Source: Deltaproteobacteria bacterium (GTDB lineage Bacteria > Chloroflexota > Dehalococcoidia > Dehalococcoidales > BS750m-G39). Taken from it: a DNA stretch of 34,318 bases. Location: the NCBI GenBank assembly GCA_030603275.1, contig JAUVYB010000014.1, forward strand, positions 1 through 34,318, given 5' to 3'. Position 1 is the first letter of the stretch; every line of letters begins with the position of its first letter. The translations under genes and the position numbers were made by a program. The notes beneath the pieces are model-generated. The model was not told where the DNA came from. It did not search any database and worked only from the letters and a program-made list of their open reading frames with translations. Below, piece after piece: positions 18,505 through 34,225 of this stretch.

Positions 18505-18620
18505 GGAGTTTGAGAGGGGGTGGAGCCATGAATTCAGGGGGTTTAAGGGGGACGAAGTCCCCCTCTTAAATCTAATTCCCCCTCTCCAAGAGTGGAGAGG
18601 GGGATAAAGGGGGTGAGGTT
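18505..18620 (+). repeat. Intergenic hairpin repeat, copy 1
   Basis: Contains an AAGGGGGAC-GAA-GTCCCCCT hairpin at 18545-18564 and a CCCCCTCTCC / GGAGAGGGGG hairpin at 18578-18603, then the tail ATAAAGGGGGTGAGG. It lies between the divergent nfo-like gene and rsfS. Other copies lie near 19.5, 23.9, 27.4, 31.6 and 33.9 kb. Confidence 0.75.
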
Positions 18621-18631
18621 GATACCAATTA

Positions 18632-18640
18632 TGCTATAAT
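18632..18640 (+). promoter_or_regulatory. Extended -10 promoter of rsfS
   Basis: TGCTATAAT at 18632-18640 places the transcription start near 18647, just before the GGAGG at 18648-18652. Confidence 0.55.
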
Positions 18641-18659
18641 GTTAACTGGAGGCTGAGAG

Positions 18660-19004
18660 CTGGAAGCACTAGAAATGGCACGTAAGGCGGTAGAGGCGGC
18701 CGCCGACAAGCAGGCAGTAGATATTCTTCTGCTGGATGCCCGCGAGGTGTGCAGCTTTGCCGATTATTTCGTGATATGCAGCGGCGAGTCAGGCCGTCAG
18801 ATTTCCGCTATCTATGATGAAATCGGGCACCGGCTTAAAAACGAGGGCGTTCTACCCCACCACCACGAAGGGACTATAGACTCCGGCTGGCTACTGTTCG
18901 ACTATGGCGATACTATAATTCATATCTTTGCCCCATTTGAGCGGGAGTTCTACCAGCTTGACGAGCTGTGGAGCCAGGCCACGCCGGTATTACGGATTCA
19001 ATAG
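18660..19004 (+). CDS. rsfS: Ribosomal silencing factor RsfS
   Basis: A RsfS/DUF143 protein of about 110-114 residues that binds ribosomal protein L14 and blocks subunit joining when growth slows. Diagnostic segments are CSFADYFVICSGESGRQISA, HHHEGTIDSGWLLFDYGD and HIFAPFEREFYQLDELW. The first ATG is at 18675, but the only SD (GGAGG, 18648-18652) is 7 nt before an in-frame CTG at 18660, and the five residues it adds (LEALE-type) match the usual N-terminus of the family. I therefore place the start at CTG; a stop at 18654 excludes anything earlier. The 3' end overlaps convergent ndk by 7 nt. Confidence 0.92.
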   Translation: MEALEMARKAVEAAADKQAVDILLLDAREVCSFADYFVICSGESGRQISAIYDEIGHRLKNEGVLPHHHEGTIDSGWLLFDYGDTIIHIFAPFEREFYQLDELWSQATPVLRIQ

Positions 19005-19417
19005 CCGAATAGCTCATCGGGGGAGAAGAAAAGCTTTATTTCCACCTCGGCGTTGGCCGGTGAATCCGAGCCGTGAACGCTATTTTTCTCAATGCTCAGG
19101 CCGAAATCGTACCTTATGGTGCCTTTTTCCGCCTTGGCCGGGTCGGTGGCCCCCAGAGCTTTTCTGGTGGTCTCCACCGCCCCATCGCCCTCAAAGACAC
19201 AGGCGGCTATCGGGGCGGAGGTGATATAGTCCACAAGGTCATTGTAGAAGGGCTTGTCCTTGTGTACGGCGTAGTGGCGCCGGGCCAGGGCTTTATCGGG
19301 GTGGAGCATCTTGAGCGCCACCAGCTTCAATCCCAGCTTCTCCAGCCGGGAGATAATAGCCCCCGCCAAGTCTCTCTGCGTTGCGTCCGGTTTGATTAAA
19401 ACCAGGGTCCGTTCCAT
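18998..19417 (-). CDS. ndk: Nucleoside diphosphate kinase
   Basis: A 139-residue NDK that transfers the terminal phosphate between nucleoside triphosphates and diphosphates through a phosphohistidine. The N-terminus ERTLVLIKPDATQR and the active-site NSVHGSDSPANAEVEI (catalytic His near residue 115) are typical, and length is normal. A strong SD (AAAGGAG) lies 5 nt before ATG. A TATTAT box at 19435-19440 with TTGCCA at 19456-19461 (minus strand, 15-bp spacer) is a possible promoter. Confidence 0.97.
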   Translation of the reverse strand: MERTLVLIKPDATQRDLAGAIISRLEKLGLKLVALKMLHPDKALARRHYAVHKDKPFYNDLVDYITSAPIAACVFEGDGAVETTRKALGATDPAKAEKGTIRYDFGLSIEKNSVHGSDSPANAEVEIKLFFSPDELFGY

Positions 19418-19489
19418 GATTACTCCTTTAGAGGATAATATTTTATGGGGTGGTTTGGCAAGTTTTCCTTAAAGGGGAGGGGTTAGCCT

Positions 19490-19915
19490 GGTTTTTAGAG
19501 TATGTTTTGATTCCCATACCCACCCGCCCGAAAGAGGTGTTACCTCTCTTCACTTTGGGGGGTTATGCCCCCCGCCCCGTTTTTAACGGGTGTTTTACTT
19601 CCCACCCTGACCCACCCTACAGAGGTTAGACCTCTAGAACTCTCCAATTGAGGGTGTTTAAGAGGGGGCGAAGCCGTGAACTTAGGGGGTTTAAGGGGGA
19701 ACTCTAGCGTTTGTTTTGCGTCCCACCCTCCCGCCCTCATAAGCTGCGCTTCTGGAACTTTCGATTAGGGGGAGGGGGAGAGAGCGTAAAAGGATGAAAC
19801 CTTTTTGGGTGGGGGGAAAGGGGGAGGAAACTAATCAGGGGGGTTTAAGGGGGACGAAGTCCCCCTTTACCTTAAAGGGTGGCGGGTGGGAATAGATAAA
19901 AATGGGGGGAGGGTA
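19490..19915. repeat. Intergenic hairpin repeat tract, copy 2
   Basis: The roughly 500-bp gap between ndk and the thioesterase gene has no gene. It holds AGAGGT-NNN-ACCTCT palindromes at 19533-19547 and 19621-19635, a GGGG-TTAT-CCCC-type hairpin near 19556-19574, the alternative AAGC-TGC-GCTT stem at 19741-19751, an AAGGGGGAC-GAA-GTCCCCCTT hairpin at 19847-19867, and GGGTGGCGGGTGGG near 19877. Several modules recur more than once within it. Confidence 0.8.
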
Positions 19916-19921
19916 AAAATC

Positions 19922-20356
19922 CTATTTTTTCTCCCTCTGGCTGTGGATGAACATGGTGGCGGTGCTATCGGCCACCGGCGTGCCGTCCTTGAGGTGCATC
20001 TCAGCTTCGGCCTCGATAAGCTTTCTCGTCTTCTTGTTGATATGGGCGGTGATAACCAGGGACGCGCCGGTCTGGAGGGGGCGTTTGAACCGGGTATGCA
20101 TCCTGGCCGTCAGGCTGTTGACCCCGGCGGCGAGGGAGGCGTAGCTCATCGCCTCGTCCAGAATGCAGCCGATGATGCCGCCGTGGACAACCCCCGACCA
20201 GCCCTGATGCAACTCACCGGGGGTGAACTCGGCCCTGACCCCTTTGCCATCACGGGCAAAATTTAGCTTCAGGCCGATGGGGTTTTTCTGCCCGCAGGCA
20301 AAGCACATGTCAAAGTCCTTATGGATATCTACCGATATTTTTGGCCAGTTCGTCAT
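19922..20356 (-). CDS. PaaI-type hotdog thioesterase
   Basis: A 144-residue hotdog-fold protein. The active-site stretch is HQGWSGVVHGGIIGCILDEA near residues 50-70, with the HGG turn and the acidic residue on the following helix, as in PaaI/YbgC acyl-CoA thioesterases. The N-terminal CFACGQKNPIGL is typical of a subgroup with a short Cys-containing head. The acyl-CoA substrate is unknown. It lies 21 nt after tsaB with its own SD (CGGAG), so it is probably the last gene of the thiL-tsaE-tsaB transcript. Confidence 0.88.
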   Translation of the reverse strand: MTNWPKISVDIHKDFDMCFACGQKNPIGLKLNFARDGKGVRAEFTPGELHQGWSGVVHGGIIGCILDEAMSYASLAAGVNSLTARMHTRFKRPLQTGASLVITAHINKKTRKLIEAEAEMHLKDGTPVADSTATMFIHSQREKK

Positions 20357-20377
20357 TTTTAATCTCCGTTCCTGGTA

Positions 20378-21055
20378 TTAGCGGTGCCGGCGCTGAGTAA
20401 TCACCGGGTGCCTGAGGTAGAGGGGCTGCAGGGTGGTGGGGTTGTCATAGTCACCCGCCTTTAATCTCTCTTTAGCCAGCTCCGCCATCAGGCTGGCGCG
20501 GCGGGGCCGGGCGGGGGCGATTACCGCTTTATCTTTAAGTTGTTCCTTTAGCTGGCCGGCGATTACGGGCACGTACTCCCCGCAGAAGAGGGTCTGGCTC
20601 TTTATTTCAGTGTCTAATGTGTCAACGGTGGTTATGTGTTCAGCGGCGAGCTGTTGCCACTTATTATCTCTTTTTTGATATAGGGCGGTGGCAATCTCTC
20701 CCCGCCTGGCGTTGAATATGGGGCAGATGGGCAGGTCATTTTCGGCATGCTGGCAGGCTTCCAGCTCCAGGCTGCTGACGCCGATGATGGGTATGTCAAG
20801 GCTGAAGGCCAGCCCCTTGGCCGTGCTCAGGCCTACCCGCAGCCCGTTAAAGCTCCCCGGGCCTTTAGCCACCAGAATACAGCTTACTGATTGAAGACTT
20901 ACCTCAGCCTTGTTGAGCAGTTCAACCAGGCGGGGCAGCAACTCCACGCTGTGGTTCTGCCCGCAGTGCCAGGTCGCCTCGGCCAGCGTCCTGCCGTCCT
21001 GCACCAGGGCCAGGCTGGCGCTATCTGTCGAGGTGTCTATTGCCAGTAACATCAT
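20378..21055 (-). CDS. tsaB: tRNA t6A biosynthesis protein TsaB
   Basis: A 225-residue ASKHA-fold protein that scaffolds the TsaB-TsaD-TsaE complex making N6-threonylcarbamoyladenosine in ANN-decoding tRNAs. The N-terminus LLAIDTSTDSASLALV, NHSVELLPRLVELL and GPGSFNGLRVGLSTAKGLA near residues 67-85 are diagnostic. Translation starts at tandem ATG codons overlapping the end of tsaE. The rimI gene often found next to tsaB is not here, and neither is tsaD. Confidence 0.95.
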   Translation of the reverse strand: MMLLAIDTSTDSASLALVQDGRTLAEATWHCGQNHSVELLPRLVELLNKAEVSLQSVSCILVAKGPGSFNGLRVGLSTAKGLAFSLDIPIIGVSSLELEACQHAENDLPICPIFNARRGEIATALYQKRDNKWQQLAAEHITTVDTLDTEIKSQTLFCGEYVPVIAGQLKEQLKDKAVIAPARPRRASLMAELAKERLKAGDYDNPTTLQPLYLRHPVITQRRHR

Positions 21056-21510
21056 TTCAGCTTTGCCACCAGTTCGCGGTAGCGTTTGCCTCCAGCTTTG
21101 AGTTTAAGGCGGCGGCCGGTATCGGAGACATAGCTCATCTCAATCAGCAGGTGCTCCGGCGGCAGCAGGCTTAAGCCCTTCTCCGCCCACTCTACCACCG
21201 AAACGCCACTGCCGTAGAAATAGTCATCCAGGCCCAGGTCGGCAATCTCCTCTAAATTGTCCAGGCGGTAGAAGTCCATATGATACAGCGGTAATCTGCC
21301 GTAAAGCTCCCTGACCACGACAAAAGAAGGGCTGGCGGCGTACTCCCTTATACCCAGTCCCCGGGCGATGCCCTGGGTGAGGCAGGTCTTGCCCGCCCCC
21401 AGCTTGCCCACCAGCAGAAAGATATCGCCGGGCAGGGCCAGCTCGCCGAGGTGGGCGCCAAACTCCTGCGTCTCCTCCGGGCTGCTGCTTGTTATCTCCG
21501 GCTGGTTCAT
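21052..21510 (-). CDS. tsaE: tRNA t6A biosynthesis ATPase TsaE
   Basis: A 152-residue P-loop ATPase that drives turnover of the t6A-forming complex. Walker A is KLGAGKTCLTQGIARGLG near residues 36-53; SPSFVVVRELYGRLPLYHMD and DLGLDDYF..VVEWAEKG follow as in the family. Its start overlaps the thiL stop and its stop overlaps tsaB, both as ATGA, implying coupled translation. Confidence 0.95.
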   Translation of the reverse strand: MNQPEITSSSPEETQEFGAHLGELALPGDIFLLVGKLGAGKTCLTQGIARGLGIREYAASPSFVVVRELYGRLPLYHMDFYRLDNLEEIADLGLDDYFYGSGVSVVEWAEKGLSLLPPEHLLIEMSYVSDTGRRLKLKAGGKRYRELVAKLK

Positions 21511-22490
21511 CGGCGGGTAAAGTGCTCCCAGCCCGACTTGCCTGAATCTACAGGGTTCCCCTGGCGGTCAACCACGGTTACCCCCTTGCCGGCGGTGATT
21601 TCGCCGATGACCGTTATCGGGCAGGAGGCGGCCTTCTTTACCTTATCTATTATTTCCGTCCCGGCGGTAAATAGCAGTTCGTAGTCCTCACCGCCGGTTA
21701 GAGCCAGTTCCAGGGCTTTATCGCCGAAGGCGGCTAAGACTTTTGGCTCCACGGGCACACGGTTGGTATCTATGCTGGCGCCGACCCGGCTGGCCTTACA
21801 TATTTGATTTAAATCGGCGACCAGCCCATCGCTGATATCTATGGCCGTTTTCACCCCCTGCTCTAATAGTAATTGACCTTCGGCAATGCGGGGGGTGGGG
21901 TGGAGGAAAGCCTGCCGGAAGCGGGCGGTGGCCTGGGGGGCGAATTTAAGCTTTTTGGTTAGCATCTCCAGCCCGGCGGCGGCCGCCCCCAGATGGCCGG
22001 TAACGGCTACCATCTCTCCGGGTTTGGCCGAGGAGCGGGTTAGTATCTGCTTTTGGGGGCTGCTGCCCAGGACGGTTATGGAGATAACGACTAAAGGGGC
22101 ATTGCTGATATCGCCGCCGACTATGGTTACTTTATGTTTTTTTGCCAGTTCCAGCATGCCGGTGTAGAGGGCGGTAACATCGTCCACCTCGGTTTGGGGG
22201 GGTAAAGCTAAAGACACCAGGCCGTAGCGTGGGGCGCCGCCCATGGCGGCGATATCGCTTAAGTTGACCGCCAGCGCCTTCCCGCCCAGCTCCGGCCAGG
22301 GGGCTATACCGGCGGGGAAGTGAACATCCTGAATGAAGGAATCTACTGTTGCCAGCTGTATAGAGGTATCGCCCTTCCAGGCGGCGGCATCATCGCCGAT
22401 GCCGATTAAGAGCTGCTTATCCCGCCCGCCGCCGGCCATTTTAGCCAGCAGGTCAATCAGCCCGAACTCCCCCAAATCCTTAACCTTCAT
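21507..22490 (-). CDS. thiL: Thiamine-monophosphate kinase ThiL
   Basis: A 327-residue AIR-synthase-like kinase that makes thiamine diphosphate from the monophosphate. The N-terminal GEFGLIDLLAKM, GIGDDAAAW near residue 31, VDSFIQDVHF, AVNLSDIAAMGGAPRYGLVS near 73-92, VGGDISNAP, DISDGLVADLNQI and ALTGGEDYELLFT all match. It has no SD; an extended -10 box lies 6 nt before the ATG, so the mRNA appears leaderless. First gene of thiL-tsaE-tsaB-thioesterase. Confidence 0.95.
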   Translation of the reverse strand: MKVKDLGEFGLIDLLAKMAGGGRDKQLLIGIGDDAAAWKGDTSIQLATVDSFIQDVHFPAGIAPWPELGGKALAVNLSDIAAMGGAPRYGLVSLALPPQTEVDDVTALYTGMLELAKKHKVTIVGGDISNAPLVVISITVLGSSPQKQILTRSSAKPGEMVAVTGHLGAAAAGLEMLTKKLKFAPQATARFRQAFLHPTPRIAEGQLLLEQGVKTAIDISDGLVADLNQICKASRVGASIDTNRVPVEPKVLAAFGDKALELALTGGEDYELLFTAGTEIIDKVKKAASCPITVIGEITAGKGVTVVDRQGNPVDSGKSGWEHFTRR

Positions 22491-22496
22491 GGCAAA

Positions 22497-22505
22497 ATTA
22501 TAGCA
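22497..22505 (-). promoter_or_regulatory. Extended -10 promoter, leaderless, for thiL
   Basis: Minus-strand TGCTATAAT is followed by six bases and then the thiL ATG. Normal -10 to +1 spacing would start the RNA at the A of ATG. Confidence 0.6.
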
Positions 22506-22591
22506 CGGCGGTATTTGGGGTCACAAGGTAAGGGAGTTTTAGGTGAGCTAACGCTATTATAGGGCAGGAGCGTCTTTACTTGTTATTAGTC

Positions 22592-23728
22592 TTACTTAGT
22601 TGACTCTTCTCTTAATGCCAATCCGAGTTGCACTCCCTCAATTTGTTCCCCTTCAGTACCTAATGGCTCAGTTGACGCCAGAATATAGCGGACATTGCGC
22701 CCTTTGCCTTCAACCCGCATTATCCCCATTTCTATAAGCGCGTTAAAACGCTTCACCACTGTAGCACGAGATAACCTAGTAGCGTCCATATAGACACCTG
22801 TAGTAACAAACCCGTAAGTTGCAGCATAAATGATTGCCTGAACTTGGTCTCTGGAAAGACCCTTTTCCTCCCCTAGGTTGTAGGCGTTTACAAAAGATTT
22901 CTGGATGTGAAGTAATTCGGACTTCTTTTCGACCAAACTCTTAGCTACAGACTCAGTAAAATACTCTAGCCATTCTGTAGGGTCATTATTAGCTCCATAT
23001 CGAGCACCAAGAACCTGTCTTATTCTTTGGTGATAGGTGTCCATGTCTATGCCTGCTTGACGTACCCAAGAAAATAAATATCTACATTTGTATCCGTACC
23101 TGTAGAGAATAAGGTCTGCCAAAGCACGTGCCGTGCGTCCATTTCCATTATCAAATGGGTGTATAGCAACTAATTCCAAATGAGCTACACCGGCGAAAAT
23201 CACCGGGTTAATTGCTATTGGTCCCTGTCTGAGCCAAGCACTTAATTCGCTCATAAGTTTTACGGAATCGCTTGGGCTGGGTGGAAGAAAAATAATTTCA
23301 CCCGATAACCTGTCTTTAATTGCATTTGGTTTTAATTTATACACACCTGGTGACCCTTGCTTTGGGATATCCCTAACAACAAAGGCGTGAATTTGCTTGA
23401 TAACTTCTTCATCTATCGGAACATTGTGGCGGTCAGCAAGGTCACGTATAAAACCCATTGCTCTATATAAATTAACGTGTTCCTGCTCGCTTGTACCAAG
23501 CTCTTTTTGCGAGAGGCGGTTCTTCCCAAGCCTCTCTGCAGTTTGCATGTTTAAGGGATTACCCTCAATGCGAGCTGTATAATAGACTGTTTCAACCAAA
23601 GCGCGATGTTGAATAGGTGCTTCAACAATGTCTAAGACTGGAATCATCCGAATCAGTGCACGGACTTCTTCTATTTCCCCCAAGCTTTTCTGGAGCTTCT
23701 CTGTTAATTTGAAATTTGGTTCATACAT
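22592..23728 (-). CDS. Fic-domain protein with N-terminal inhibitory helix and C-terminal wHTH
   Basis: A 378-residue class II Fic protein, predicted to transfer AMP from ATP to a hydroxyl group on a target protein. The catalytic HPFDNGNGR is at residues 190-198. The N-terminal inhibitory motif (S/T)xxxE(G/N) appears as TARIEG at 51-56, so the enzyme should be self-restrained. The C-terminal 90 residues (YGFVTTGVYMDATRLSRATV) look like a winged HTH, fitting autoregulation from the ATGATT sites in its promoter. The gene is visibly richer in A+T than its neighbours and stands alone, which suggests transfer. No antitoxin gene lies beside it. An SD-like AGGGA precedes ATG. Confidence 0.9.
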   Translation of the reverse strand: MYEPNFKLTEKLQKSLGEIEEVRALIRMIPVLDIVEAPIQHRALVETVYYTARIEGNPLNMQTAERLGKNRLSQKELGTSEQEHVNLYRAMGFIRDLADRHNVPIDEEVIKQIHAFVVRDIPKQGSPGVYKLKPNAIKDRLSGEIIFLPPSPSDSVKLMSELSAWLRQGPIAINPVIFAGVAHLELVAIHPFDNGNGRTARALADLILYRYGYKCRYLFSWVRQAGIDMDTYHQRIRQVLGARYGANNDPTEWLEYFTESVAKSLVEKKSELLHIQKSFVNAYNLGEEKGLSRDQVQAIIYAATYGFVTTGVYMDATRLSRATVVKRFNALIEMGIMRVEGKGRNVRYILASTEPLGTEGEQIEGVQLGLALREESTK

Positions 23729-23746
23729 TTTTATTTCATTCCCTAA

Positions 23747-23813
23747 ATGATTAAAATGATTGTCTAAATAAAATGTTTAGTATTTTACTTAATCATCTAT
23801 CATTTATATGATT
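23747..23813. promoter_or_regulatory. ATGATT operator-like sites upstream of the Fic gene
   Basis: ATGATT occurs directly repeated at 23747-23752 and 23756-23761 (9 bp apart). An inverted pair, AATCAT at 23791-23796 and ATGATT at 23808-23813, overlaps the -10 box. The placement would let a bound repressor block RNA polymerase. Confidence 0.5.
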
Positions 23814-23838
23814 ATATCACAAAGTATATATTTGTCAA
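23811..23838 (-). promoter_or_regulatory. Consensus sigma-70-type promoter of the Fic gene
   Basis: On the minus strand TTGACA (23833-23838) and TATAAT (23811-23816) are separated by 16 bp. Both boxes are perfect. The transcript would have a leader of about 75 nt. Confidence 0.8.
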
Positions 23839-23898
23839 GTCATTTTTATGAAAGACTCATTTTATGTTTGATTAATAGCGTTTCGCAATAAGTTACAG

Positions 23899-24020
23899 CT
23901 AAGGGGTGTTTTAGAGGGGCGAAACCATGAATTCAGGGGGTTTAAGGGGGACTTCGTCCCCCTTTACCTTAAAGGGTGGCGGGTGGGTAAAGATAAAATT
24001 GGGGGTGAGGTTGATAAGCA
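23899..24020 (+). repeat. Intergenic hairpin repeat, copy 3 (inverted loop)
   Basis: Similar to parts of copies 1 and 2. The hairpin at 23944-23964 reads AAGGGGGAC-TTC-GTCCCCCTT, with the loop reverse-complemented relative to the GAA of the other copies although the flanks keep the same orientation. GGGTGGCGGGTGGG follows near 23974. Confidence 0.75.
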
Positions 24021-24063
24021 GGTGCTATAGAGAATAAAACTCTAGCCTTATGGCCAAAAAACT

Positions 24064-24071
24064 GGTATAGT
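24064..24071 (+). promoter_or_regulatory. -10 box, near-leaderless, for the metallophosphoesterase
   Basis: TATAGT at 24066-24071, preceded by TG one base upstream (extended -10), leaves 10 nt before the ATG and no SD. No -35 was recognised. Confidence 0.45.
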
Positions 24072-24081
24072 TTTAGTGTAA

Positions 24082-24816
24082 ATGCGTTACGCAATTATTG
24101 CCGATATCCATGCCAATCTGACCGCTTTTATGGCGGTTCTGGTTGATATTAAGGAGCAGGGGGAGGTGGAGGAGATATGGTGTCTGGGGGATATCATCGG
24201 CTATGGACCGGACCCGCACCAGTGCATTGAGCTCCTGCGCCAGACCAACCATATCTGCGTGGCCGGTAACCACGACCTGGCGGCCATAGGCGAGATTGAT
24301 ACCAACCAGTTCAATCCCGATGCCGTCGTCGCCTGTGGGTGGACGGCAAGGCAGTTGACTCCGCGGGATGTGGTCTATATTAAGGACCTGCCCTCGGTTA
24401 TTGAGAGGGACGACTTTACCCTGGTGCACGGCAGCCCCCGGGAGCCCGTCTGGGAGTATATCCTGTCCATTAGTGGAGCCAATGAGAATTTTGCCTACTT
24501 TAAGACCAAGTATTGCCTGGTGTGCCATTCCCATGTGCCGGCGGTGTTTAGGTTGGGCAAGGGCGGCGCCTGTTCTTTCAGCAAGTTTTTACCGGGTAGC
24601 GCGGTGGGGTTGGGGGAGGAGCGGTTGATTATCAACCCCGGTTCCGTGGGACAGCCGCGGGACGGCGACCCCAGGGCGAGCTACGCTATCTATGACAGCA
24701 AGGCCGGCCAGGTCAGGCTCCACCGTGTTCCTTACGATATTACCGCCACTCAGGCCAGGATGGTGGAGCAGAGACTGCCGATGAGGCTGGTAGTTCGCCT
24801 GAACCGTGGTGCTTAG
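24082..24816 (+). CDS. Calcineurin-like metallophosphoesterase
   Basis: A 244-residue two-metal phosphoesterase. Metal ligands appear in order: ADIHANLTA near residue 8, LGDIIGYGPDP near 36, GNHDLAA near 61, LVHGSPRE near 113, CHSHVPAVF near 149 and a late NPGSVGQPRDGDPRASYA. The last motif is typical of the small YfcE/MJ0936-like group of phosphodiesterases. The substrate is not known. ATG at 24082 is the only start that keeps the opening strand MRYAIIADIHAN. Divergent from the Fic gene, with a repeat between them. Confidence 0.9.
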   Translation: MRYAIIADIHANLTAFMAVLVDIKEQGEVEEIWCLGDIIGYGPDPHQCIELLRQTNHICVAGNHDLAAIGEIDTNQFNPDAVVACGWTARQLTPRDVVYIKDLPSVIERDDFTLVHGSPREPVWEYILSISGANENFAYFKTKYCLVCHSHVPAVFRLGKGGACSFSKFLPGSAVGLGEERLIINPGSVGQPRDGDPRASYAIYDSKAGQVRLHRVPYDITATQARMVEQRLPMRLVVRLNRGA

Positions 24817-24836
24817 TCGGGCGCTATCCTCCATTG

Positions 24837-24866
24837 TTGACATGAAGTGCACTCAAGCGATAAACT
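24837..24866 (+). promoter_or_regulatory. Promoter of had-oah
   Basis: A perfect TTGACA at 24837-24842 with TAAACT at 24861-24866 (18-bp spacer). The leader would be about 50 nt. Confidence 0.55.
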
Positions 24867-24922
24867 TATTGAGTTGTCTTAAAAACCGCCAGTTTATTGA
24901 TTCTTAGTGAGGAGTGAAGAAA

Positions 24923-27212: not shown

Positions 27213-27235
27213 GGCTGATTTTGCTTCGTTTACTA

Positions 27236-27660
27236 TGAGGGGGGGGATAAGGGGAGGTCTCGCCCTGATTTTAGAGTGTGTTTTGCGTCCCACCCTCCCG
27301 CCCAATAGAGGTTATACCTCTCTTCACTCCTTTTTACGGGGGTTATGCCCCACTCCTCTCCTGCTTTCGGGCGTTTCTCTTCCCACCCGCCCGCCCACAG
27401 AAGTGATACTTCTATCAATTTCTTCTTGGGGGGTGGGGTTTAAGAGATGAAAAGAGGCGAAGCCTTAATTTTTAATGGGGATTAGAGTGGGACGAAGTGC
27501 GCAATAGGGGTGTCTAAGAGGGGGCGAAGCCCCCTCTTCTTAAAAAACAATTCCCCTTCCCCTTGCTAAGGGGAAGGGGATAAAGGGGATAGGGTTTCCT
27601 TAAATAATGAAAAATAAGGTGGGGTGGGAATAGATATAAAACGGGGGTGGGGATAGTTTT
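27236..27660. repeat. Intergenic hairpin repeat tract, copy 4
   Basis: Gene-free tract between oah and the SRP RNA. Modules seen are AGAGGT-TAT-ACCTCT at 27307-27321, a GGGGTTATGCCCC hairpin near 27337-27351, AGAAGT-GAT-ACTTCT at 27399-27413, AAGAGGGGGC-GAA-GCCCCCTCTT at 27516-27538, and CCCCTTCCCCTT-GCT-AAGGGGAAGGGG at 27553-27579 with the tail ATAAAGGGGATAGGG. The two palindromes differ by paired changes that preserve pairing. Confidence 0.8.
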
Positions 27661-27673
27661 CCCCCATTCTGGC

Positions 27674-27702
27674 TTGACAAAGAAGTAGCCACCCATTAGC
27701 AT
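27674..27702 (+). promoter_or_regulatory. Promoter of the SRP RNA
   Basis: TTGACA at 27674-27679 and TAGCAT at 27697-27702 are separated by 17 bp. The predicted start near 27709 agrees with the first conserved SRP RNA bases (GGTCGTGCTAGACGGGGAG). Confidence 0.7.
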
Positions 27703-27708
27703 TTTATT

Positions 27709-27977
27709 GAGGTCGTGCTAGACGGGGAGCCAGCGGTGCCCTGAACTCGCAATCCGCTATAGCGGGGTTGAATTCCTGCTTGAGGCCTTTGTCTGGTGGG
27801 ACTACCCGGGTTAAGTGGTGTTGAAGGCCGGGTCCTGCGCGGCAGAGCTCTATGAATCCCGTCAGATCTGAGAGGAAGCAGCGGTAAATAGAAGCCCTGG
27901 GTGCCGCAGGGTTACCTGGCTGGAGCCGGCTGGCTTCGGGCAAGCTGCGGGGCGGGGTCGAGGGTGGGTGCACGGCC
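27709..27977 (+). ncRNA. ffs: Signal recognition particle RNA, large bacterial type with Alu domain
   Basis: The region reads as a roughly 265-nt SRP RNA similar in layout to Bacillus scRNA. The 5' Alu part has GTGCTAGACGGGGAG, GCGGTGCCCTG and CGCAATCCGCTATAGC. GGGTCCTGCGC pairs with GTGCCGCAGGG. The S domain (27861-27882) has GTCAG and GGAAGCAGC around a GAGA tetraloop. The 3' end carries GGTGCACGG as in the Bacillus RNA. It binds Ffh for membrane targeting of nascent proteins. No T-tract terminator follows; the RNA end abuts the rsmA coding region, so processing from a longer transcript is possible. Confidence 0.92.
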
Positions 27978-27991
27978 TCACTATTTCTGAT

Positions 27992-28858
27992 ATGGATAAA
28001 AGCCCGAATTCACTGCTGGTTCAGACGAAAAGGCGGCTGCGGCAGTTTGGCCTTAAGCCGAGAAAGGGGCTGGGGCAGCACTTCCTGGTTGATGAGGAGG
28101 TGCTGGAGGTCATTACCTCCGCTGCTAAACTTACCCCCGACGACCTGGTGGTGGAGGTGGGGCCGGGGCTGGGTATCCTGACCGAGGCGTTAGCCCGGAG
28201 AGCCGGCGGGGTAATCGCCATTGAGCTGGATGATAAGCTGGCGGCTTTGCTTGAAAAAACGCTGCTTTCTTTTAAAAACGTCACCATCGTCAACGATAAT
28301 GTGCTTAATATCGAGCCGGGGGAGTTGCTGGCGAGGCGGGGGGTAAATCCTGTTTACAAGGTGGTGGCCAACCTGCCTTACTATATTACTTCGCCCGTCC
28401 TGCGCCATTTCCTGGATAGTTCGGCCCGGCCGCAGGTGATGATTTTTATGGTGCAGAAAGAAGTGGCCGAGGCTATTGCCGCAAAGCCCGGCGATATGAG
28501 TTTGCTCAGTGTAAGCGTCCAGTTCTACGGTAAGCCGGAAATAGTAAGCTACGTGCCGGCGGAGTCGTTCTACCCGGCGCCGGAGGTCGATTCGGCGGTG
28601 CTGCGCATTGAGCTCTACCCTGAGCCGGCGGTGGCGGTGAGTGACGAGGGGGGCTTTTTTGAGCTGGTGAGGGCCGGTTTTGCCGCCCCGCGTAAGCAGA
28701 TAGCCAATTCCCTGTCCCAGGGGCTGGGGCTGCCCAGGGACGTGATTTTACCACTTTTGGAGAAAGCCGATATATCCGGACAGCGGCGAGCGGAGACCCT
28801 GACCCTTGAGGAGTGGGCCCGGCTGTGGCGGGTTTTTGAGGAGAAAAAAGCATGGTAG
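27992..28858 (+). CDS. rsmA: 16S rRNA dimethyladenosine transferase RsmA (KsgA)
   Basis: A 288-residue SAM methyltransferase that dimethylates A1518 and A1519 of 16S rRNA. KPRKGLGQHFLVDEEVLE near residue 20 and VVEVGPGLGILTEALARRAG near 51-70 form the SAM site; VVANLPYYITSPVLRHFL near 122-139 holds the NLPY catalytic motif; VPAESFYPAPEVDSAVLRIE follows. ATG at 27992 was chosen because an in-frame GTG at 27968 lies inside the 3' end of the SRP RNA. No SD is obvious. It is followed by ispE after a 17-bp tandem duplication. Confidence 0.95.
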   Translation: MDKSPNSLLVQTKRRLRQFGLKPRKGLGQHFLVDEEVLEVITSAAKLTPDDLVVEVGPGLGILTEALARRAGGVIAIELDDKLAALLEKTLLSFKNVTIVNDNVLNIEPGELLARRGVNPVYKVVANLPYYITSPVLRHFLDSSARPQVMIFMVQKEVAEAIAAKPGDMSLLSVSVQFYGKPEIVSYVPAESFYPAPEVDSAVLRIELYPEPAVAVSDEGGFFELVRAGFAAPRKQIANSLSQGLGLPRDVILPLLEKADISGQRRAETLTLEEWARLWRVFEEKKAW

Positions 28859-28874
28859 AGAAAAAATCATGGTA
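28841..28874 (+). repeat. 17-bp tandem duplication at the rsmA/ispE junction
   Basis: Positions 28841-28857 and 28858-28874 are adjacent copies differing at one base. The first contains the end of rsmA, the second the ispE start codon. Both carry CATGGTA, so the rsmA stop (TAG) and the ispE ATG derive from the same unit. Confidence 0.75.
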
Positions 28875-29735
28875 GATGTTAAGGCGCCGGCCAAGATTAA
28901 CCTCACCCTTGAGGTTCTGGGCGAGCGTCCCGACGGCTTTCATGAGATACGCAGTGTTATCCAGACGATAGACCTCTATGACAGCCTCCGTTTCCGCTCC
29001 AATCGTAGGCTCCGCTTTAGCTGTGATAACCCCGAATTTATCGTGGAGGAGAGCTTGGTGACCAGGGCGGCGGCCCTGCTCCAGGAAGCCGGTGGTTCCT
29101 CCAGGGGGGCGACCATAGATATTAAAAAGCGTATCCCGCTGGTGGCCGGGCTGGGTGGGGACAGCAGTGACGCCGCCGCTGTCCTGAGCCAGCTTAACAA
29201 GCTCTGGAAGATGGGTCTGTCAACGGAGCAGCTGCTTGAGCTGGCCCCCGGGCTGGGTTCGGATGTGGCTTTCTTTCTCTACGGGGGCACGGCGCTGGTG
29301 AAGGGGAGGGGGGAAGAGGTAACGGCGCTGCCGCCGCTTCCCCGCAGGTGGGTGGTACTGCTGGTGCCGCCTTTTTCCCGGATGCCAGAAAAGACTGCCA
29401 AGCTCTATGCCAGCCTTAAGCCCAGCCACTATACCGACGGGCAGATTACGGAAAGGCTGGTCAAAGTTTTGAACGAGGGGCGGGGGTTTAAGCCGTCAAT
29501 GCTTTTTAACACCTTTGAGAACGTCGCCTTTGAGCTTTTTCCCAGGCTTAAACTATATAGAGACCACTTTATCAAGCTGGGCGCTTACAATGTGCACCTG
29601 GCCGGCTCGGGGCCGGCGCTGTTTACCATGATGGATGACCAGTTTCAGGCGGAGAACCTGTACGCGCGCTGCCAGCAGCAGAACCTGGAATCTTATCTGG
29701 CCGAGACAACCGATAGCGAGGGAGGTATCAAATGA
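28869..29735 (+). CDS. ispE: 4-diphosphocytidyl-2-C-methyl-D-erythritol kinase IspE
   Basis: A 288-residue GHMP kinase of the MEP isoprenoid pathway, phosphorylating CDP-methylerythritol. The start VDVKAPAKINLTLEVLGERP is diagnostic, the ATP loop is PLVAGLGGDSSDAAAVLSQL near residues 90-109, and the C-terminal GAYNVHLAGSGPALFTMM completes the motifs. ATG at 28869 fixes the family N-terminus. Its stop overlaps the rubrerythrin start (ATGA). The polyprenyl synthase at 12.7 kb belongs to the same precursor supply. Confidence 0.95.
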   Translation: MVDVKAPAKINLTLEVLGERPDGFHEIRSVIQTIDLYDSLRFRSNRRLRFSCDNPEFIVEESLVTRAAALLQEAGGSSRGATIDIKKRIPLVAGLGGDSSDAAAVLSQLNKLWKMGLSTEQLLELAPGLGSDVAFFLYGGTALVKGRGEEVTALPPLPRRWVVLLVPPFSRMPEKTAKLYASLKPSHYTDGQITERLVKVLNEGRGFKPSMLFNTFENVAFELFPRLKLYRDHFIKLGAYNVHLAGSGPALFTMMDDQFQAENLYARCQQQNLESYLAETTDSEGGIK

Positions 29736-30235
29736 GCACTACCAGGGATAATTTAGAGGAGGCTTTTGCCGGGGAAAGCCAGGCCAGCCGGCGCTACCTT
29801 TTCTTTGCCGAAAAGGCGGATGGCGAGGGGCTGCCCCAGATAGCCAGGCTGTTCCGGGCGGCGGCTGAGGCGGAGACGGTCCACGCCCGCAATCACCTTA
29901 AAGTCATGGATGACATCGGTGGAACTAAGGATAATCTGAAGGCGTCTATCGGCGGCGAGAGCTATGAGTTCACCGAGATGTACCCCGGTTTCATCGAGCA
30001 GGCCAAGGCTGAGAATAACGAGAAGGCCGAGATTACCTTTAACTATGCCAATAAGGTGGAGAAGGTCCACCACGGCCTGTACCAGAAGGCGCTGGAGCTG
30101 CTTGAGGTGGGGCAGGAGGCTAAAGCCGAGCCCTACTTTGTCTGCCCGGTCTGCGGCTATACCGTGGCCGGTGAAGCCCCGGAGAAGTGCCCGATCTGCG
30201 GCACGCCCGGGAGCAAGTTTATGCGGGTGGAGTAG
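29732..30235 (+). CDS. rbr: Rubrerythrin
   Basis: A 167-residue rubrerythrin. The N-terminal ferritin-like domain has diiron ligands in LEEAFAGESQASRRYLFFAE near residue 8, AEAETVHARNHL near 47 and EITFNYANKVEKVHH near 97-111. The C-terminal rubredoxin-like domain has CPVCGYT and CPICGTPGS (two CxxC). It reduces hydrogen peroxide in anaerobes using electrons from rubredoxin or NADH-linked partners. Coupled by 4 nt to ispE. Its end overlaps the convergent nucleotidyltransferase gene by 17 nt. Confidence 0.95.
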   Translation: MSTTRDNLEEAFAGESQASRRYLFFAEKADGEGLPQIARLFRAAAEAETVHARNHLKVMDDIGGTKDNLKASIGGESYEFTEMYPGFIEQAKAENNEKAEITFNYANKVEKVHHGLYQKALELLEVGQEAKAEPYFVCPVCGYTVAGEAPEKCPICGTPGSKFMRVE

Positions 30236-31499
30236 TTCCCCCCTGTTGCTGGGCCAGCCACCCCTTAATTATCTCTTCCTCATCATGGCGGGTGTTTATC
30301 TTCCCGTTCAGCTTGGCCTGGTGAAGCAGGCCCAGTATCTCCTTTATCTGGGGGCCGGGGGCAATGCCCATCTGGATTAAGTCGTCGCCGGTGAGCGATA
30401 CCTGCACGTCTTTGAGCCGGTTGAGGAAGAGGTGAATAGCTTGGCCGGCCACCGCCGACTGGGTGACCAGTGAGTTCGCTTCTAAAGCGGTGGGGGAGAA
30501 ATCGCGGAGGAGGTTATAGATGGCGCCGGGCGAGACGCCGGGGGTGGACAGCGAGCGCATCTTGTTCTTGACGGCGATGGTATCCCGGAGGGTTTTAGCC
30601 GACAACCTGGGCAGGTTGAGGCGCGATATCAGCTGTTCGATTTCCTCGGCGGTGAGGGGATAAGCCAGCAGCGCCAGGTAGAGGTCAAACGATGGCGGTT
30701 CCGGGGAGCATTCCTGGCGGGCGTGCTCGAATTTTTCCTTGAGAAAGCCGTCACCCTTTAGCGACGGGTGTAACGCCGCCAGCACCCCCAGTTCCCCGGC
30801 GCGATTAAAGACCTTTTCCGGATATTTTTCCTTGCATATGCACTCCATCTCATAGCGGGTGCGGTCGGCGCTTATAGTTTCCAGCATGGGTATATCCCGC
30901 TGGAGCAGGGTTTGCGTTCTTCTCTCCAGGTGGAAGCTCAGCCGCTGCTCGTAGCGCAAAGCACGCCAGATGCGGGTGGCGTCGTCGGTGAAGCTTTTTT
31001 CGTGGAGTATGCGGATGCGCTTACTCTGCAGGTCCTCGCGGCCGCCGTGGGGGTCGACCAGCTTGCCGTAGTAGCCGGGGTTGAGGCGGATAGCCATGGT
31101 GTTGATGGTGAAATCGCGGCGGGAGAGGTCGTCGTCAATAGAGCTGGGGGTCACCGCGGGCAGGGCTCCGGGTTTGGCATAGGTTTCACTGCGGGCGGTG
31201 GCCAGGTCGATGCTCCAGTCGTGCCACTGGAGCTTGGCGGTGTTGAAGCGGGGGTGGGTGGTGATTTTGCCCTTGTTGATTCCTGTTAGCTGCTGGGCCA
31301 GCTCGATGGCATTGCCCTCAACCACCAGGTCGAGGTCAAAATTGGCCTGTTCCATGAGCAGGTCGCGGACAACCCCGCCGACGAGGTAGAGCTTCTCCCC
31401 GCGGCTGTTGGCCATCTCGCCGGCCACCCACATGAAGTTGACCAGTTCCGGGGGCAGCTGTTTTTCTATTAATTTGCCGAAGTTAATGCGCTTGGACAT
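30219..31499 (-). CDS. CCA-adding/poly(A) polymerase family nucleotidyltransferase
   Basis: A 426-residue class II tRNA nucleotidyltransferase-family protein. LYLVGGVVRDLLME near residue 38 with NFDLDLVVEG (DxD metal site) near 53 forms the catalytic head; SRRDFTINTMAIRLNPG near 128 and GREDLQSKRIRILHEKSFTDDATRIWRALRYE near 151-182 follow. Such enzymes repair or add the tRNA 3' CCA, or add A tails; members cannot be told apart from these motifs alone. No HD phosphohydrolase domain was seen. It lacks an SD; a TGCTATAAT box ends 11 nt before the ATG. Confidence 0.88.
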   Translation of the reverse strand: MSKRINFGKLIEKQLPPELVNFMWVAGEMANSRGEKLYLVGGVVRDLLMEQANFDLDLVVEGNAIELAQQLTGINKGKITTHPRFNTAKLQWHDWSIDLATARSETYAKPGALPAVTPSSIDDDLSRRDFTINTMAIRLNPGYYGKLVDPHGGREDLQSKRIRILHEKSFTDDATRIWRALRYEQRLSFHLERRTQTLLQRDIPMLETISADRTRYEMECICKEKYPEKVFNRAGELGVLAALHPSLKGDGFLKEKFEHARQECSPEPPSFDLYLALLAYPLTAEEIEQLISRLNLPRLSAKTLRDTIAVKNKMRSLSTPGVSPGAIYNLLRDFSPTALEANSLVTQSAVAGQAIHLFLNRLKDVQVSLTGDDLIQMGIAPGPQIKEILGLLHQAKLNGKINTRHDEEEIIKGWLAQQQGGTTPPA

Positions 31500-31510
31500 G
31501 GTCTATAAAA

Positions 31511-31519
31511 ATTATAGCA
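31511..31519 (-). promoter_or_regulatory. Extended -10 promoter, near-leaderless, for the nucleotidyltransferase
   Basis: Minus-strand TGCTATAAT with 11 nt to the ATG predicts a leader of about 4 nt. Confidence 0.55.
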
Positions 31520-31540
31520 CAGTATGTGACTGGTCAATAG

Positions 31541-31770
31541 GGGGAAAGTGAGAGATTTTTAGGAGTATGAAGGCTAACTTGACTGGGTGGGGGGAAAAGG
31601 GGTGGTGATTAATCAGGAATGTTTAAGAGGGGAGATTTTTTAGGGAGTACTAGAGGGGCAGAGTGCGTAATCAGGGGAGTTTAAGAGGGGGCGAAGCCCC
31701 CTCTTTCAAGAGAATAATTCCCCTTCCCCTTGGCAAGGGGAAGGGGATAAAGGGGATAGGGTTCCCCTGT
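31541..31770 (+). repeat. Intergenic hairpin repeat, copy 5
   Basis: Contains AAGAGGGGGC-GAA-GCCCCCTCTT at 31683-31705 and CCCCTTCCCCTT-GGC-AAGGGGAAGGGG at 31720-31746 with the tail ATAAAGGGGATAGGG. It occupies most of the divergent gap between the nucleotidyltransferase and the SDR gene and ends a few bases before the SDR promoter. Confidence 0.8.
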
Positions 31771-31773
31771 ATA

Positions 31774-31782
31774 TGCTATAAT
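31774..31782 (+). promoter_or_regulatory. Extended -10 promoter, near-leaderless, for the SDR gene
   Basis: TGCTATAAT at 31774-31782 leaves 12 nt before the ATG at 31795; predicted leader about 6 nt without an SD. Confidence 0.55.
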
Positions 31783-31794
31783 GGCTGGCAAATA

Positions 31795-32805
31795 ATGATA
31801 GTTGTAACCGGTGCCGCCGGGCACGTTGGGGCTAACCTGGTACCGGCTCTGCTGGCCCAGGGCCGTCCGGTGCGGGTTCTGGTCCATGCCGACCGGCGGG
31901 CTTTCCAGGGACTGGATGTTGAAGCTGTCCAGGGCGATATCCGCGACCCGGAGTCTCTGGTAAGCGCCTTTAAGAACGCTGAGGTGGTCTATCACCTGGC
32001 GGCTCGTATCTCCATCTTTCAGCACGATTGGCCCTTACTTGAGGCGGTCAATGTTACCGGCACCCGGAATGTGGTCGAGGCTTGCCTGCGCTGCGGAGTG
32101 CGCCGCCTTGTCCATTTCAGCACCATCCACAGCATAGCCCAGACGATTTCCGGCAGCCCGGTCGGTGAATCAAACTCCCTGGTTGAATCCCGGCGCTACC
32201 CGGCTTACGACCGCTCCAAGGCGGCGGCGGAGAGAGAGGTGCGTCAGGGGATAGAGAGGGGATTGGACGCGGTTATCATCAGTCCCACCGGGATTATCGG
32301 TCCCAATGACTACAGGCCTTCCCACTTCGGTGACGCTTTGCTAAGGTTGGCCGACGGCAGGCTGCCGTCCCTGGTTTCCGGCGGGTTTGACTGGGTGGAT
32401 GTCCGCGACGTTGTCCGGGGGGCGGTGCGGGCCGAAGAACAAGCCCCGGCCGGAGCCAAGTACATCCTTTCCGGTCACTGGGTGTCACTGCGGGAGGTGG
32501 CCGGGCTGGTAGCGCAGATAACCGGAGTGCCGGCCCCCGGTTTTGTCTGCCCTATGTGGCTGGCCCGTGTCGGCGCCCCGTTCATCACCGCCTTTGACCG
32601 TCTGGCCGGCAGGCGGCCGCTCTACACCAGTGTTTCCCTGCAGGCACTGCGTGACAATCGGAACATAAGCCACCAGAAGGCGACCGGGGAGCTGGACTAT
32701 CACCCGCGCCCGTTTAGGGAAACGCTTGTCGATACCCTCCGCTGGTTTGAGAAGAACGGGCGGCTTGCCCGCCCCTTAAAGATAACGTCAACGGGGTCAG
32801 CTTGA
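31795..32805 (+). CDS. Extended SDR, 3-beta-HSD/epimerase-like
   Basis: A 336-residue NAD(P)-dependent extended short-chain dehydrogenase. The glycine motif VTGAAGHVGANLV starts at residue 4, YHLAARISI is near 66, NVTGTRNVVEACLRCGVRRL near 80-99, and the catalytic YxxxK is YDRSK after a VHFSTIHS strand. The family includes 3-beta-hydroxysteroid dehydrogenases, hopanoid-associated epimerases and dihydroflavonol reductases; the substrate is open. ATG at 31795 matches the family start, while the frame upstream runs through the repeat. The next gene, a 5-alpha-reductase-like membrane protein, overlaps it by 4 nt, so both probably act on the same type of substrate. Confidence 0.85.
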   Translation: MIVVTGAAGHVGANLVPALLAQGRPVRVLVHADRRAFQGLDVEAVQGDIRDPESLVSAFKNAEVVYHLAARISIFQHDWPLLEAVNVTGTRNVVEACLRCGVRRLVHFSTIHSIAQTISGSPVGESNSLVESRRYPAYDRSKAAAEREVRQGIERGLDAVIISPTGIIGPNDYRPSHFGDALLRLADGRLPSLVSGGFDWVDVRDVVRGAVRAEEQAPAGAKYILSGHWVSLREVAGLVAQITGVPAPGFVCPMWLARVGAPFITAFDRLAGRRPLYTSVSLQALRDNRNISHQKATGELDYHPRPFRETLVDTLRWFEKNGRLARPLKITSTGSA

Positions 32806-33563
32806 GCGAGCTGGCTGTTTTTAATGTTCTCATCGCCGGCTGGTTTTCACTGGCGGCGGTAGTCTTTCTATCCCTGCTGTTCTTCGCCGCCCCGTATGGC
32901 CGCCACGTCCGCCGTGGCTGGGGTCTGGCCATCAACAACAGGCTGGGCTGGGTTATCATGGAAGCGGTGGCGCCGGTGGCCTTCGCCGTGTGCTTTGTCC
33001 TCGGCGGCAACCCCAATACCGTTACAACACTGGTCTTCCTGGGATTGTGGCAGGCCCATTACCTGCACCGGGCTTTTATCTACCCCTTTAGTCTGCGCAG
33101 CCGGAGCCGGGGGATGCCGCTGCTCGTTATTAGCTTTGGCTTTCTGTTCAACACGGTGAACGGCTACCTCAACGGGCGCCACATTTTCTGTTTCTCCGGC
33201 GGCTACGGCAACCAGTGGCTGGGGGACCCGCGGTTTATCGCCGGAGTGGCCCTGTTTATCACCGGTTTCATCATCAACCGGCAGGCCGACCGGATTCTGG
33301 GTAGCTTAAGCAAATCGGCCGACTCCGGTTATAAGATTCCGTATGGCGGGCTTTACCGCTGGATATCGTGCCCTAACTACCTGGGGGAGATTATTATATG
33401 GCTGGGCTGGGCGGTGGCGACCTGGTCGCTGCCGGGGCTGGCATTTGCCGTTTGGACGCTGGCTAATCTGGTGCCCCGCGCCCGTTCCCACCACGCCTGG
33501 TACCGGCAGCGCTTTCCGGATTATCCGCACCGGCGCCGGGCGCTTTTGCCGGGGATATGGTAG
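32802..33563 (+). CDS. Steroid 5-alpha-reductase-like membrane protein
   Basis: A 253-residue polytopic protein with about six or seven helices. The C-terminal third carries the 3-oxo-5-alpha-steroid 4-dehydrogenase (PF02544) pattern: SGYKIPYGGLYRWISCPNYL near residues 176-195, GEIIIWLGWAVATWS, then RARSHHAWYRQRFPDYPHRR near the end. QAHYLHRAFIYPF near 85 is also typical. The family reduces C=C bonds next to a carbonyl in steroids, or in long-chain enoyl-CoA and polyprenols. TTG start; the SD is poor but the start overlaps the SDR stop, indicating coupling. Few anaerobic bacteria are known to use this family, so the real substrate is an open question. Confidence 0.87.
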   Translation: MSELAVFNVLIAGWFSLAAVVFLSLLFFAAPYGRHVRRGWGLAINNRLGWVIMEAVAPVAFAVCFVLGGNPNTVTTLVFLGLWQAHYLHRAFIYPFSLRSRSRGMPLLVISFGFLFNTVNGYLNGRHIFCFSGGYGNQWLGDPRFIAGVALFITGFIINRQADRILGSLSKSADSGYKIPYGGLYRWISCPNYLGEIIIWLGWAVATWSLPGLAFAVWTLANLVPRARSHHAWYRQRFPDYPHRRRALLPGIW

Positions 33564-33574
33564 GGGGGAGTTTT

Positions 33575-34225
33575 TCTACCCACCCTCCCGCCCACATAAG
33601 CTGCGCTTCTGAAACTTTTTGGGTTTATGCCCCCAACCCCATTTTAAACCAGTGTTTTTCTTTCCCGCTCTGACCCACCCTAAAGAGGTGATACCTCTCT
33701 TCCACTCTGGGGAGTTATGCCCCGCACCCCTCCTTATTTGACGGTTCTCTTTTTTCCCACCCTCCCACCCTATAGAGGTTTCAACTCTCTCACTGTGGGA
33801 GGTTATTCCCCCAACCCCGCTTTTTCGGAGGTGTGTTGAGGTATATTATTTATTTTGGGTGGGGGGAAAAGGGGAGGGTCTGGCCTGATTTTTAGAGTGC
33901 GTTTTGTGTCCCGCCCTCCCGCCCTAAAGAAGTGATACTTCTATTAAATTCATCTTAGGGGGAGTGGGGAAAAGGGGGGATAATCTAACGGGGGTGTTTA
34001 AGAGGGGGCAGAGCCATGAATTTAGGGGGTTTAAGGGGGACGAAGTCCCCCTTTTTATATTATTATTCCCCTTCCCCTTGGCAAGGGGAAGGGGATAAAG
34101 GGGATAGGGTTTCCTTAAATAATATAAAAAATAATTGGGTTGGGGAGGGGTAAAAAGGGCTTTAGCCCGCTTCCATTAAGGGTGGCGGGCGGGAAAAGAT
34201 ATAAAACGGAGTGGGGGGAAATAGC
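33575..34225. repeat. Intergenic hairpin repeat tract, copy 6 (largest)
   Basis: About 650 bp with no gene. Modules are AAGC-TGC-GCTT at 33598-33608, AGAGGT-GAT-ACCTCT at 33684-33698, an imperfect one at 33774-33788, AGAAGT-GAT-ACTTCT at 33928-33942, several GGGG..CCCC hairpins (near 33715 and 33797), AAGGGGGAC-GAA-GTCCCCCTT at 34033-34053, CCCCTTCCCCTT-GGC-AAGGGGAAGGGG at 34068-34094, and GGGTGGCGGGCGGG near 34180. CCCACCCTCCCGCCC-type segments precede most of the palindromes. Confidence 0.8.

Follow-up and report, generated by a model that had tools for sequence, protein, structure and literature searches.

Strand-polar mosaic hairpin repeats with a putative triplex motif in a Dehalococcoidia lineage

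Hairpin modules in the window and in the host genome

The 34,318-nucleotide stretch of DNA analysed in this study (the window) is contig JAUVYB010000014.1 (contig C33 in our numbering) of an uncultured bacterium of the Dehalococcoidia, whose assembly comprises 1.52 Mb in 50 contigs and is 93% complete. Its intergenic spacers carry short repeats built from four modules, termed A, B, C, and D, which we read as mosaic DNA elements whose hairpins are probably renewed by template switching. An initial annotation had described a hairpin set shared by six spacers, at about 18.5, 19.5, 23.9, 27.4, 31.6, and 33.9 kb. Modules were present at all six places, and the stem pairs that had been quoted (AGAGGT/ACCTCT, AGAAGT/ACTTCT, and AAGC/GCTT; AAGAGGGGGC/GCCCCCTCTT and AAGGGGGAC/GTCCCCCTT; CCCCTTCCCCTT/AAGGGGAAGGGG and CCCCCTCTCC/GGAGAGGGGG) were found in the sequence.

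Along one strand, C usually comes first, A second, and B third. Module C consists of CCCACCCTCCCGCCC and a short triloop hairpin, whereas module A consists of GGGGTGTTTAAG and a palindrome such as AAGAGGGGGC-GAA-GCCCCCTCTT, whose size and copy number fit those of repetitive extragenic palindromic (REP) sequences (palindromes of 20-40 nt in high copy). Module B comprises a C-rich arm, a loop, a G-rich arm, a linker (ATAAA, ATTAA, or ATACA), and a G-rich tail; module D is a fourth block, also G-rich. In the window, every module is on the + strand, whereas genes occur on both strands.

In the 18.5-kb spacer, a truncated module A (left arm and loop only; 18508-18527) is followed by a short-stem form (AAGGGGGAC-GAA-GTCCCCCT; 18537-18565) and by a module B of subtype I at 18578-18618, where the C arm (18578-18587) and the G arm (18594-18603) lead through the linker ATAAA into a putative third-strand tail (18609-18618). 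The 19.5-kb spacer holds modules C at 19516-19556, 19595-19640, and 19716-19762 (the last with the AAGC/GCTT hairpin), a truncated A (19652-19675), a short-stem A (19839-19867), and a module D (TACCTTAAAGGGTGGCGGGTGGG...; 19863-19918), a G-rich partner block assigned to family D5. A short-stem A with the loop TTC (23936-23964) and a D (23960-24015) lie at 23.9 kb. Modules C at 27283-27325 and 27378-27420 precede a full-length A (27507-27548), a B of subtype II (CCCCTTCCCCTT-GCT-AAGGGGAAGGGG-ATAAA-tail GGGGATAGGGTT; 27553-27596), and the right part of a D (27601-27656), and at 31.6 kb a full-length A (31674-31715) stands before another subtype II B (31720-31763). The last mosaic runs from modules C at 33573-33618 (AAGC/GCTT), 33662-33705, 33751-33792, and 33904-33946 (AGAAGT/ACTTCT) through a truncated A (33991-34015), a short-stem A (34025-34053), and a subtype II B (34067-34111) to a D at 34166-34221. 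A B linker and tail (AGGGGGATACAGGGGGTGAGGCTGAT) also stand without a hairpin at 9047-9072, apparently as a remnant. Directly after the 27.4-kb mosaic lies a bacterial large signal recognition particle RNA (RF01854, 176.2 bits; 27713-27975, +).

Profile scans for modules A, B, and C, run at a cut-off of 14 bits over 22 contigs of the host genome (1.13 Mb), returned 302 matches (106 C, 101 B, and 95 A) that form 154 cassettes; the reversed contigs and a first-order Markov shuffle of the same sequence gave none. A 20-base pattern of module A, with up to three mismatches, had 24 + 23 matches in the host genome compared with 1 + 0 for the reversed pattern, and a module A model had 128 matches at an E value of 0.1, part of which were the same palindrome read in reverse. 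When genes were called by a simple longest-open-reading-frame rule, a module was held by 130 of the 465 spacers of at least 60 nt, and the midpoints of 9 of the 302 hits, all three modules pooled, fell inside called reading frames longer than 150 aa.

When the order was searched with the module A model, matches at an E value of 1e-7 were found in 13 of 156 genomes, nine of which (the host included) belong to the window's family. The named carriers were metagenome-assembled genomes (MAGs) of Dehalococcoidia or Chloroflexi and MAGs labelled Deltaproteobacteria. Sharing of module A across phyla was considered and dropped: the "Deltaproteobacteria" loci stem from two genomes, G010 and G011, that are placed in the window's genus, and these loci mostly match the host contigs at 84-95% identity with order conserved. 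Loci of JABMRW01 (bin.571) and JAUWGI01 (CSMAG_2238), found among loci L048-L071, come from Deltaproteobacteria-named MAGs placed in the window's genus, and the NCBI labels look wrong. Given this placement of the carriers, we take the host to belong to Dehalococcoidales (Chloroflexota). A subtype I pattern searched in 400 Chloroflexota genomes matched the host genome alone, in a draw that held no other member of the window's family.

Paired substitutions and inverted loops

Folding as DNA of the A plus B stretches of three spacers gave z scores of -5.2, -5.3, and -5.8, and one C stretch gave a z score of -3.0. For the analysis of substitutions, A hairpins were located through the neighbouring B rather than through their own pairing (70 found, 1 not), yielding 60 distinct copies. 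Across their inner five pairs, 297 of 300 cells were Watson-Crick paired, compared with 245.5 (sd 3.5) when partners were shuffled; in 30 cells both sides departed from the commonest pair, and 3 cells were unpaired, which bears out the excess of paired over single changes proposed for these stems. The C triloop hairpins, included only with at least three of five pairs, were paired in 237 of 248 cells of the inner four pairs (178.1, sd 5.0, when shuffled), with 42 cells changed on both sides and 11 unpaired. Stems of module B, included only with at least seven of ten pairs, were paired in 380 of 390 cells (330.2, sd 5.7, when shuffled). The partner shuffles used here leave relatedness between copies uncorrected.

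Covariation as strong as this would favour a structured RNA, that is, hairpins transcribed as small RNAs, 5' untranslated regions, or terminators, with the pairing under selection in the RNA. Mismatches of the G.T or T.G kind outnumbered A.C mismatches by 4 to 1 in A and by 9 to 7 in C, but these cells are too few to show wobble pairing, and the use of such mismatches to decide between RNA and DNA was given up. A point against structured RNA came from the loops, which occur as exact inversions. Among subtype I copies of B in the host genome and G010, the 14 distinct six-base loops hold four reverse-complement pairs (AAGAGT/ACTCTT, AAGAAT/ATTCTT, TTTGAA/TTCAAA, and CTTGAG/CTCAAG), whereas letter-shuffled loops held a mean of 0.088 and reached four in 0 of 20,000 trials. 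Because the loops occur inverted while the linker and tail keep their place, it was the hairpin tip that was inverted.

Eight orthologous A loci were aligned between the host genome and G010, and seven were counted; C7:44725 (contig and position), at which the loop is inverted, was left out because its B differs in subtype in G010, so that the unit may have been replaced. The triloop was exactly inverted at three of the seven loci (C6:23467, C8:193, and C38:10721), identical at three (C19, C2, and C17), and otherwise different at C38:18023, where GTA versus TAT is one base short of an inversion. The surroundings of C6:23467 are 88.6% identical over 666 bases, and those of the C17 locus, on one side, 94.5% over 637 bases. 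The only stem changes at the seven loci were paired, a single one at C19 and another at C17; none affected one side alone. An automatic count of module A rows, which reads some loci on both strands and gave 4 inversions in 7 loci before C7:44725 was removed and C17 added, found no one-sided change and a single two-sided one in 106 pair cells, compared with 15 and 2, respectively, in 102 cells of other perfect hairpins found alike. Looser filters, kept outside the seven-locus count, returned identical loops at C41:43290 and C29 and GAA versus AAA at C8 in G011, along with paralogous rows. In orthologous B modules (12 comparisons, some of one locus), differences were found at 0 of 176 stem sites, 8 of 123 loop sites, 2 of 120 tail sites, and 122 of 960 flanking sites.

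These observations bear on the idea that the repeats are inert remnants, whose paired changes are merely inherited differences between old subfamilies. The major subtypes are indeed few, and copies within a subtype are near identical; however, loops are inverted and stems changed in pairs at orthologous loci, and the stems there stay intact where other hairpins found alike show one-sided changes. We regard this explanation as highly improbable. Template switching, by comparison, has been described as yielding simultaneous paired changes and loop inversions (PMC8794818, PMC8604942), and arm homogenisation with loop inversion is seen both at the A loci, a small sample, and in the B loops. Since the hairpins bear such footprints, substitutions that occur in pairs do not have to reflect selection on an RNA. 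Of the two explanations raised by the initial annotation, renewal of the palindromes by copying gains direct support from the exactly inverted loops and the one-pair stem changes, both-sided and never one-sided, at orthologous A loci and from the reverse-complement B loop pairs. In the accessible parts of the two reports, such footprints, with the same simultaneous paired changes and exact loop inversions, are described in RNA genes (bacterial rRNA included) and in yeast coding DNA (PMC8794818, PMC8604942); here they occur in a family of repeats dispersed over a bacterial genome.

Module B and the intrastrand triplex motif

The tail of module B is a mirror image of its G arm and places a T or an A opposite every T-A pair. 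Judged from its sequence, module B belongs to the class II intrastrand triplex motif, of the purine-motif kind (PMC4666352). The available text of that report gives the limits of the ITxF search for the motif as a stem of 6-15 and loops of 1-6 nt; B stems measure about 10-12, the first loop mostly 3-6 (in a few copies 7), and the second 5, and the 101 B hits in 1.13 Mb agree with an intergenic, multi-copy motif. As far as the same text goes, the described elements (PIT elements; TM/TMECO or BoxC) share with B the C arm, the purine arm, and the antiparallel purine third strand, are G/C-rich and intergenic, and occur in many copies, and the subtype I core CCCTCTCC..GGAGAGGG..GGGTGAGG is the core of the Escherichia coli motif (PMC4666352). 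Holder et al. reported the motif in more than 260 genomes and showed the triplex in vitro (PMC4666352). Module B departs from the elements covered by that text in its second loop (ATAAA, ATTAA, or ATACA, versus TTA or CCG), in having, within one genome, two further subtypes (II and III) whose arms and tails covary, in being usually joined to a second palindrome (A) within larger mosaics, and in a strand coherent along contigs, whereas the E. coli motif has no strand bias (PMC4666352).

Three main B subtypes coexist in the host genome, and their tails were found to change with their arms. From 75 copies (2 dropped at parsing, 2 with fewer than seven of ten pairs, the rest duplicates), 39 distinct ones were examined. 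Triplets of the C-G.G, T-A.A, or T-A.T kind made up 368 of 390 cells, compared with 319.7 (sd 5.9, maximum 341) when tails were shuffled. At positions 5-10, all 76 cells with a stem T-A had T or A opposite, and 137 of the 149 with C-G had G. An arm combined with the tail of another subtype fitted at 7.3 to 7.8 of 10 positions, and with its own tail at 9.0 to 9.8. When each distinct arm was given one row (10 rows), 90 of 100 triplets fitted, a value equalled by 19 of 20,000 shuffles. Direct-repeat and Watson-Crick relations of the tail gave no comparable excess.

Template switching cannot produce this match, because no polymerase copies a mirror image, which leaves either a constraint on the three-strand structure or a small number of founding events. 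The proposal that selection maintains structure is accordingly supported for B as a constraint, but not in the form of a plain hairpin, since B is a motif for a three-strand DNA structure. It is conceivable, though we hold it only tentatively, that the tail-arm match across subtypes is a natural record of three-strand covariation, according to which the triplex would form inside living cells and be recognised or under selection there, possibly as the signal through which the mosaics pause the fork or are copied or inserted.

Turnover, orientation, and interpretation

Most cassettes were not kept in place between genomes of the same genus. The comparison covered 10 host contigs with 106 cassettes and 534 kb of G010 with 76 cassettes. 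Of 20 host cassettes testable by both flanks in G010, 2 had the same modules, 8 had no module hit and a shorter gap, and 10 differed; in the reverse direction, the 17 testable G010 cassettes comprised 1 with the same modules, 3 with none, and 13 with different ones. For example, window positions 19516-19763 are missing in G010 (a gap of 491 bases here versus 25 there), and at window position 18576 G010 has C-C-A instead of the host's B. When the 11 sites without a module hit were read individually, both clean gaps and gaps with remnants were seen: an A palindrome is kept at the edge in G010 at C41:69271, and at the L184 site the host keeps a C-like piece below the cut-off.

Near-empty and refilled sites of this kind would also be expected of transposons similar to miniature inverted-repeat transposable elements (MITEs) or REPs, moved in trans by a dedicated transposase that needs the palindromes and so keeps them. 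Several further observations agree with such elements, namely hairpins nested in hairpins, inverted CAACCTCACCCC ends resembling terminal inverted repeats on one whole cassette, a different B subtype at the orthologous C7:44725, and an A-B unit at C21:111008 (locus L136, 11008-11085) that lies in a gene overlap between two copies of the 7-base direct repeat CCATGAA, with the stop and start codons both kept. Target duplication was, however, not consistent over the 11 sites read. The REP-type transposase suggested for these repeats did not emerge either: PF01797 (Y1_Tnp, RAYT) was found in 0 of 11 genomes of the window's family (67-93% complete, most of them incomplete), with 5 of 14 controls positive, in a search that did not extend to other transposase families, group II introns, or reverse transcriptases. 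On balance, we consider transposition by a dedicated enzyme unlikely, although less so than inert remnants.

Several of these sites showed further detail. By eye, the overlapping genes at C21:111008 look like RseP and IspG, and a broken CCCACCC block, belonging to C or D, borders on three of the B-A units. At C7:44725 (and locus L145 near 8906), the host has B subtype III where G010 has subtype I, with arms and tail both changed, which represents either a swapped unit or conversion of the whole triplex motif. At C41:71964 (L126 near 11964), another hairpin (GGGGCCCCCGAAAAAACAAAGTTTTTTGGGGG) lies inside the A loop, which is plain in the G010 orthologue; a loose pattern for this hairpin matched 12 times in 1.13 Mb. 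In L118 (C15, within 8683-9181) and in L126 near 12802 (C41), the B linker contains a third hairpin (AAGCGGG..GATTTTTCTGGGTGCTT) as an insertion, possibly with TA or TTAA duplication, and we take these insertions to resemble an IS630-type MITE.

The position of cassettes relative to genes is not terminator- or promoter-like. Convergent, divergent, and tandem spacers held 16, 26, and 80 of 122 cassettes, compared with 67, 123, and 275 among all 465 spacers, so that neither convergent nor divergent spacers were enriched. Two findings nevertheless favour a structured RNA. Of the 80 cassettes in tandem spacers, 53 shared the strand of the genes, and a TATAAT-like hexamer (at most one mismatch, in the next 60 nt) followed 36 of 56 host B copies versus 105 of 284 random 60-nt control pieces from module-free spacers. 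The latter lends modest support to the proposal that a -10 box often follows directly on the tail, although the excess may be explained by a possible tendency of B to sit near gene starts. Against an RNA stand the elements of the window, which had no Rfam match at gathering score (only RF01854, adjoining them, was matched), and the testable elements, most of which were not kept in place between same-genus genomes. A purine-motif triplex with an antiparallel third strand is moreover favoured by DNA. Together with the inverted loops, these points lead us to regard selection on a structured RNA as quite unlikely.

Cassettes were strand-polar in themselves and along contigs. Among cassettes with at least two modules, 78 of 96 had every module on one strand, and the sum of |n+ - n-| within contigs was 70, compared with 41.7 (sd 7.0) under the null, a value reached in 4 of 20,000 trials. 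Contigs C7, C14, C33, C35, C21, C38, and others showed a shared direction more than expected by chance. At a gene-corrected GC skew at third codon positions of at least 0.08, 33 of 40 cassettes agreed with the leading strand (7 contigs for, 0 against). We make no claim of orientation by replication strand, as only 69 of all 132 cassettes with a value agree and contigs split 10 to 10.

Compared with bacterial interspersed mosaic elements (BIMEs) and REPs, as covered by the available descriptions, the repeats likewise consist of palindromes that are short, intergenic, and abundant and that form mosaics with further conserved blocks (PMC3733652, PMC2817692). They differ in that the A consensus has neither the GTAG nor the CGTC tag beside its stem, no RAYT domain was found in the 11 genomes of the family, the multi-module cassettes mostly keep one orientation whereas BIME palindromes alternate, and B is a triplex motif (PMC3733652, PMC2817692). 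With MITEs and small mobile repeats, in the portion of the source available, they share their small size, non-coding nature, and presence or absence between relatives, although here no terminal inverted repeat is consistently combined with target duplication (PMC2229807). The initial view that no described family has this make-up therefore needs qualification, because B fits a described motif family (PMC4666352) and the layout resembles BIMEs; our literature search, some of it on partial texts, gave no description of this module set. In some ways, then, the elements are already known, and in others they are new.

Taken together, we favour, with a probability of about 0.6, the reading that a Dehalococcoidia lineage carries here non-coding, strand-polar, BIME-like mosaic repeats whose action and evolution take place at the level of DNA. 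Template switching at replication would keep the A and B hairpins perfect, and probably those of C as well: on single-stranded DNA at the fork, where the structures presumably form, the polymerase would copy one arm onto the other and occasionally flip the loop, so that joint changes of the two arms would require no selection on an RNA. In module B, the G-rich tail of a C/G hairpin would fold back in the cell as a third strand, and this tail has changed in step with the arms. Whole units are gained and lost quickly between genomes of the same genus and would spread by hairpin-dependent copying or by some further enzyme.

Several points weigh against this reading. The orthologous A sample is small and unpolarised, and random replacement by family copies would make differing triloops reverse complements in 19% of cases, so that three inversions among four differing triloops are by themselves only suggestive; the B loops are the weightier evidence. 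At C38:10721 a difference is also seen in the adjacent C hairpin, and the changed B loops at orthologous loci are not exact inversions. Losses and gains are mixed, because several no-hit sites keep remnants. For the triplex, the arm-level test has only 10 rows, and the B subtypes may represent few founding events. The accessible text on the described motif reports no support for a stable triplex in vivo and an E. coli footprint that did not support folding (PMC4666352). Finally, selection could act alongside template switching.

Two consequences follow for repeats of this kind. Intergenic hairpins can acquire strongly paired substitutions through template switching at the DNA level, so that covariation by itself is no sufficient sign of a structured RNA. 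Moreover, the presence of several covarying B subtypes in one genome allows the in-cell folding of bacterial triplex motifs to be tested, both comparatively and by swapping arms and tails.

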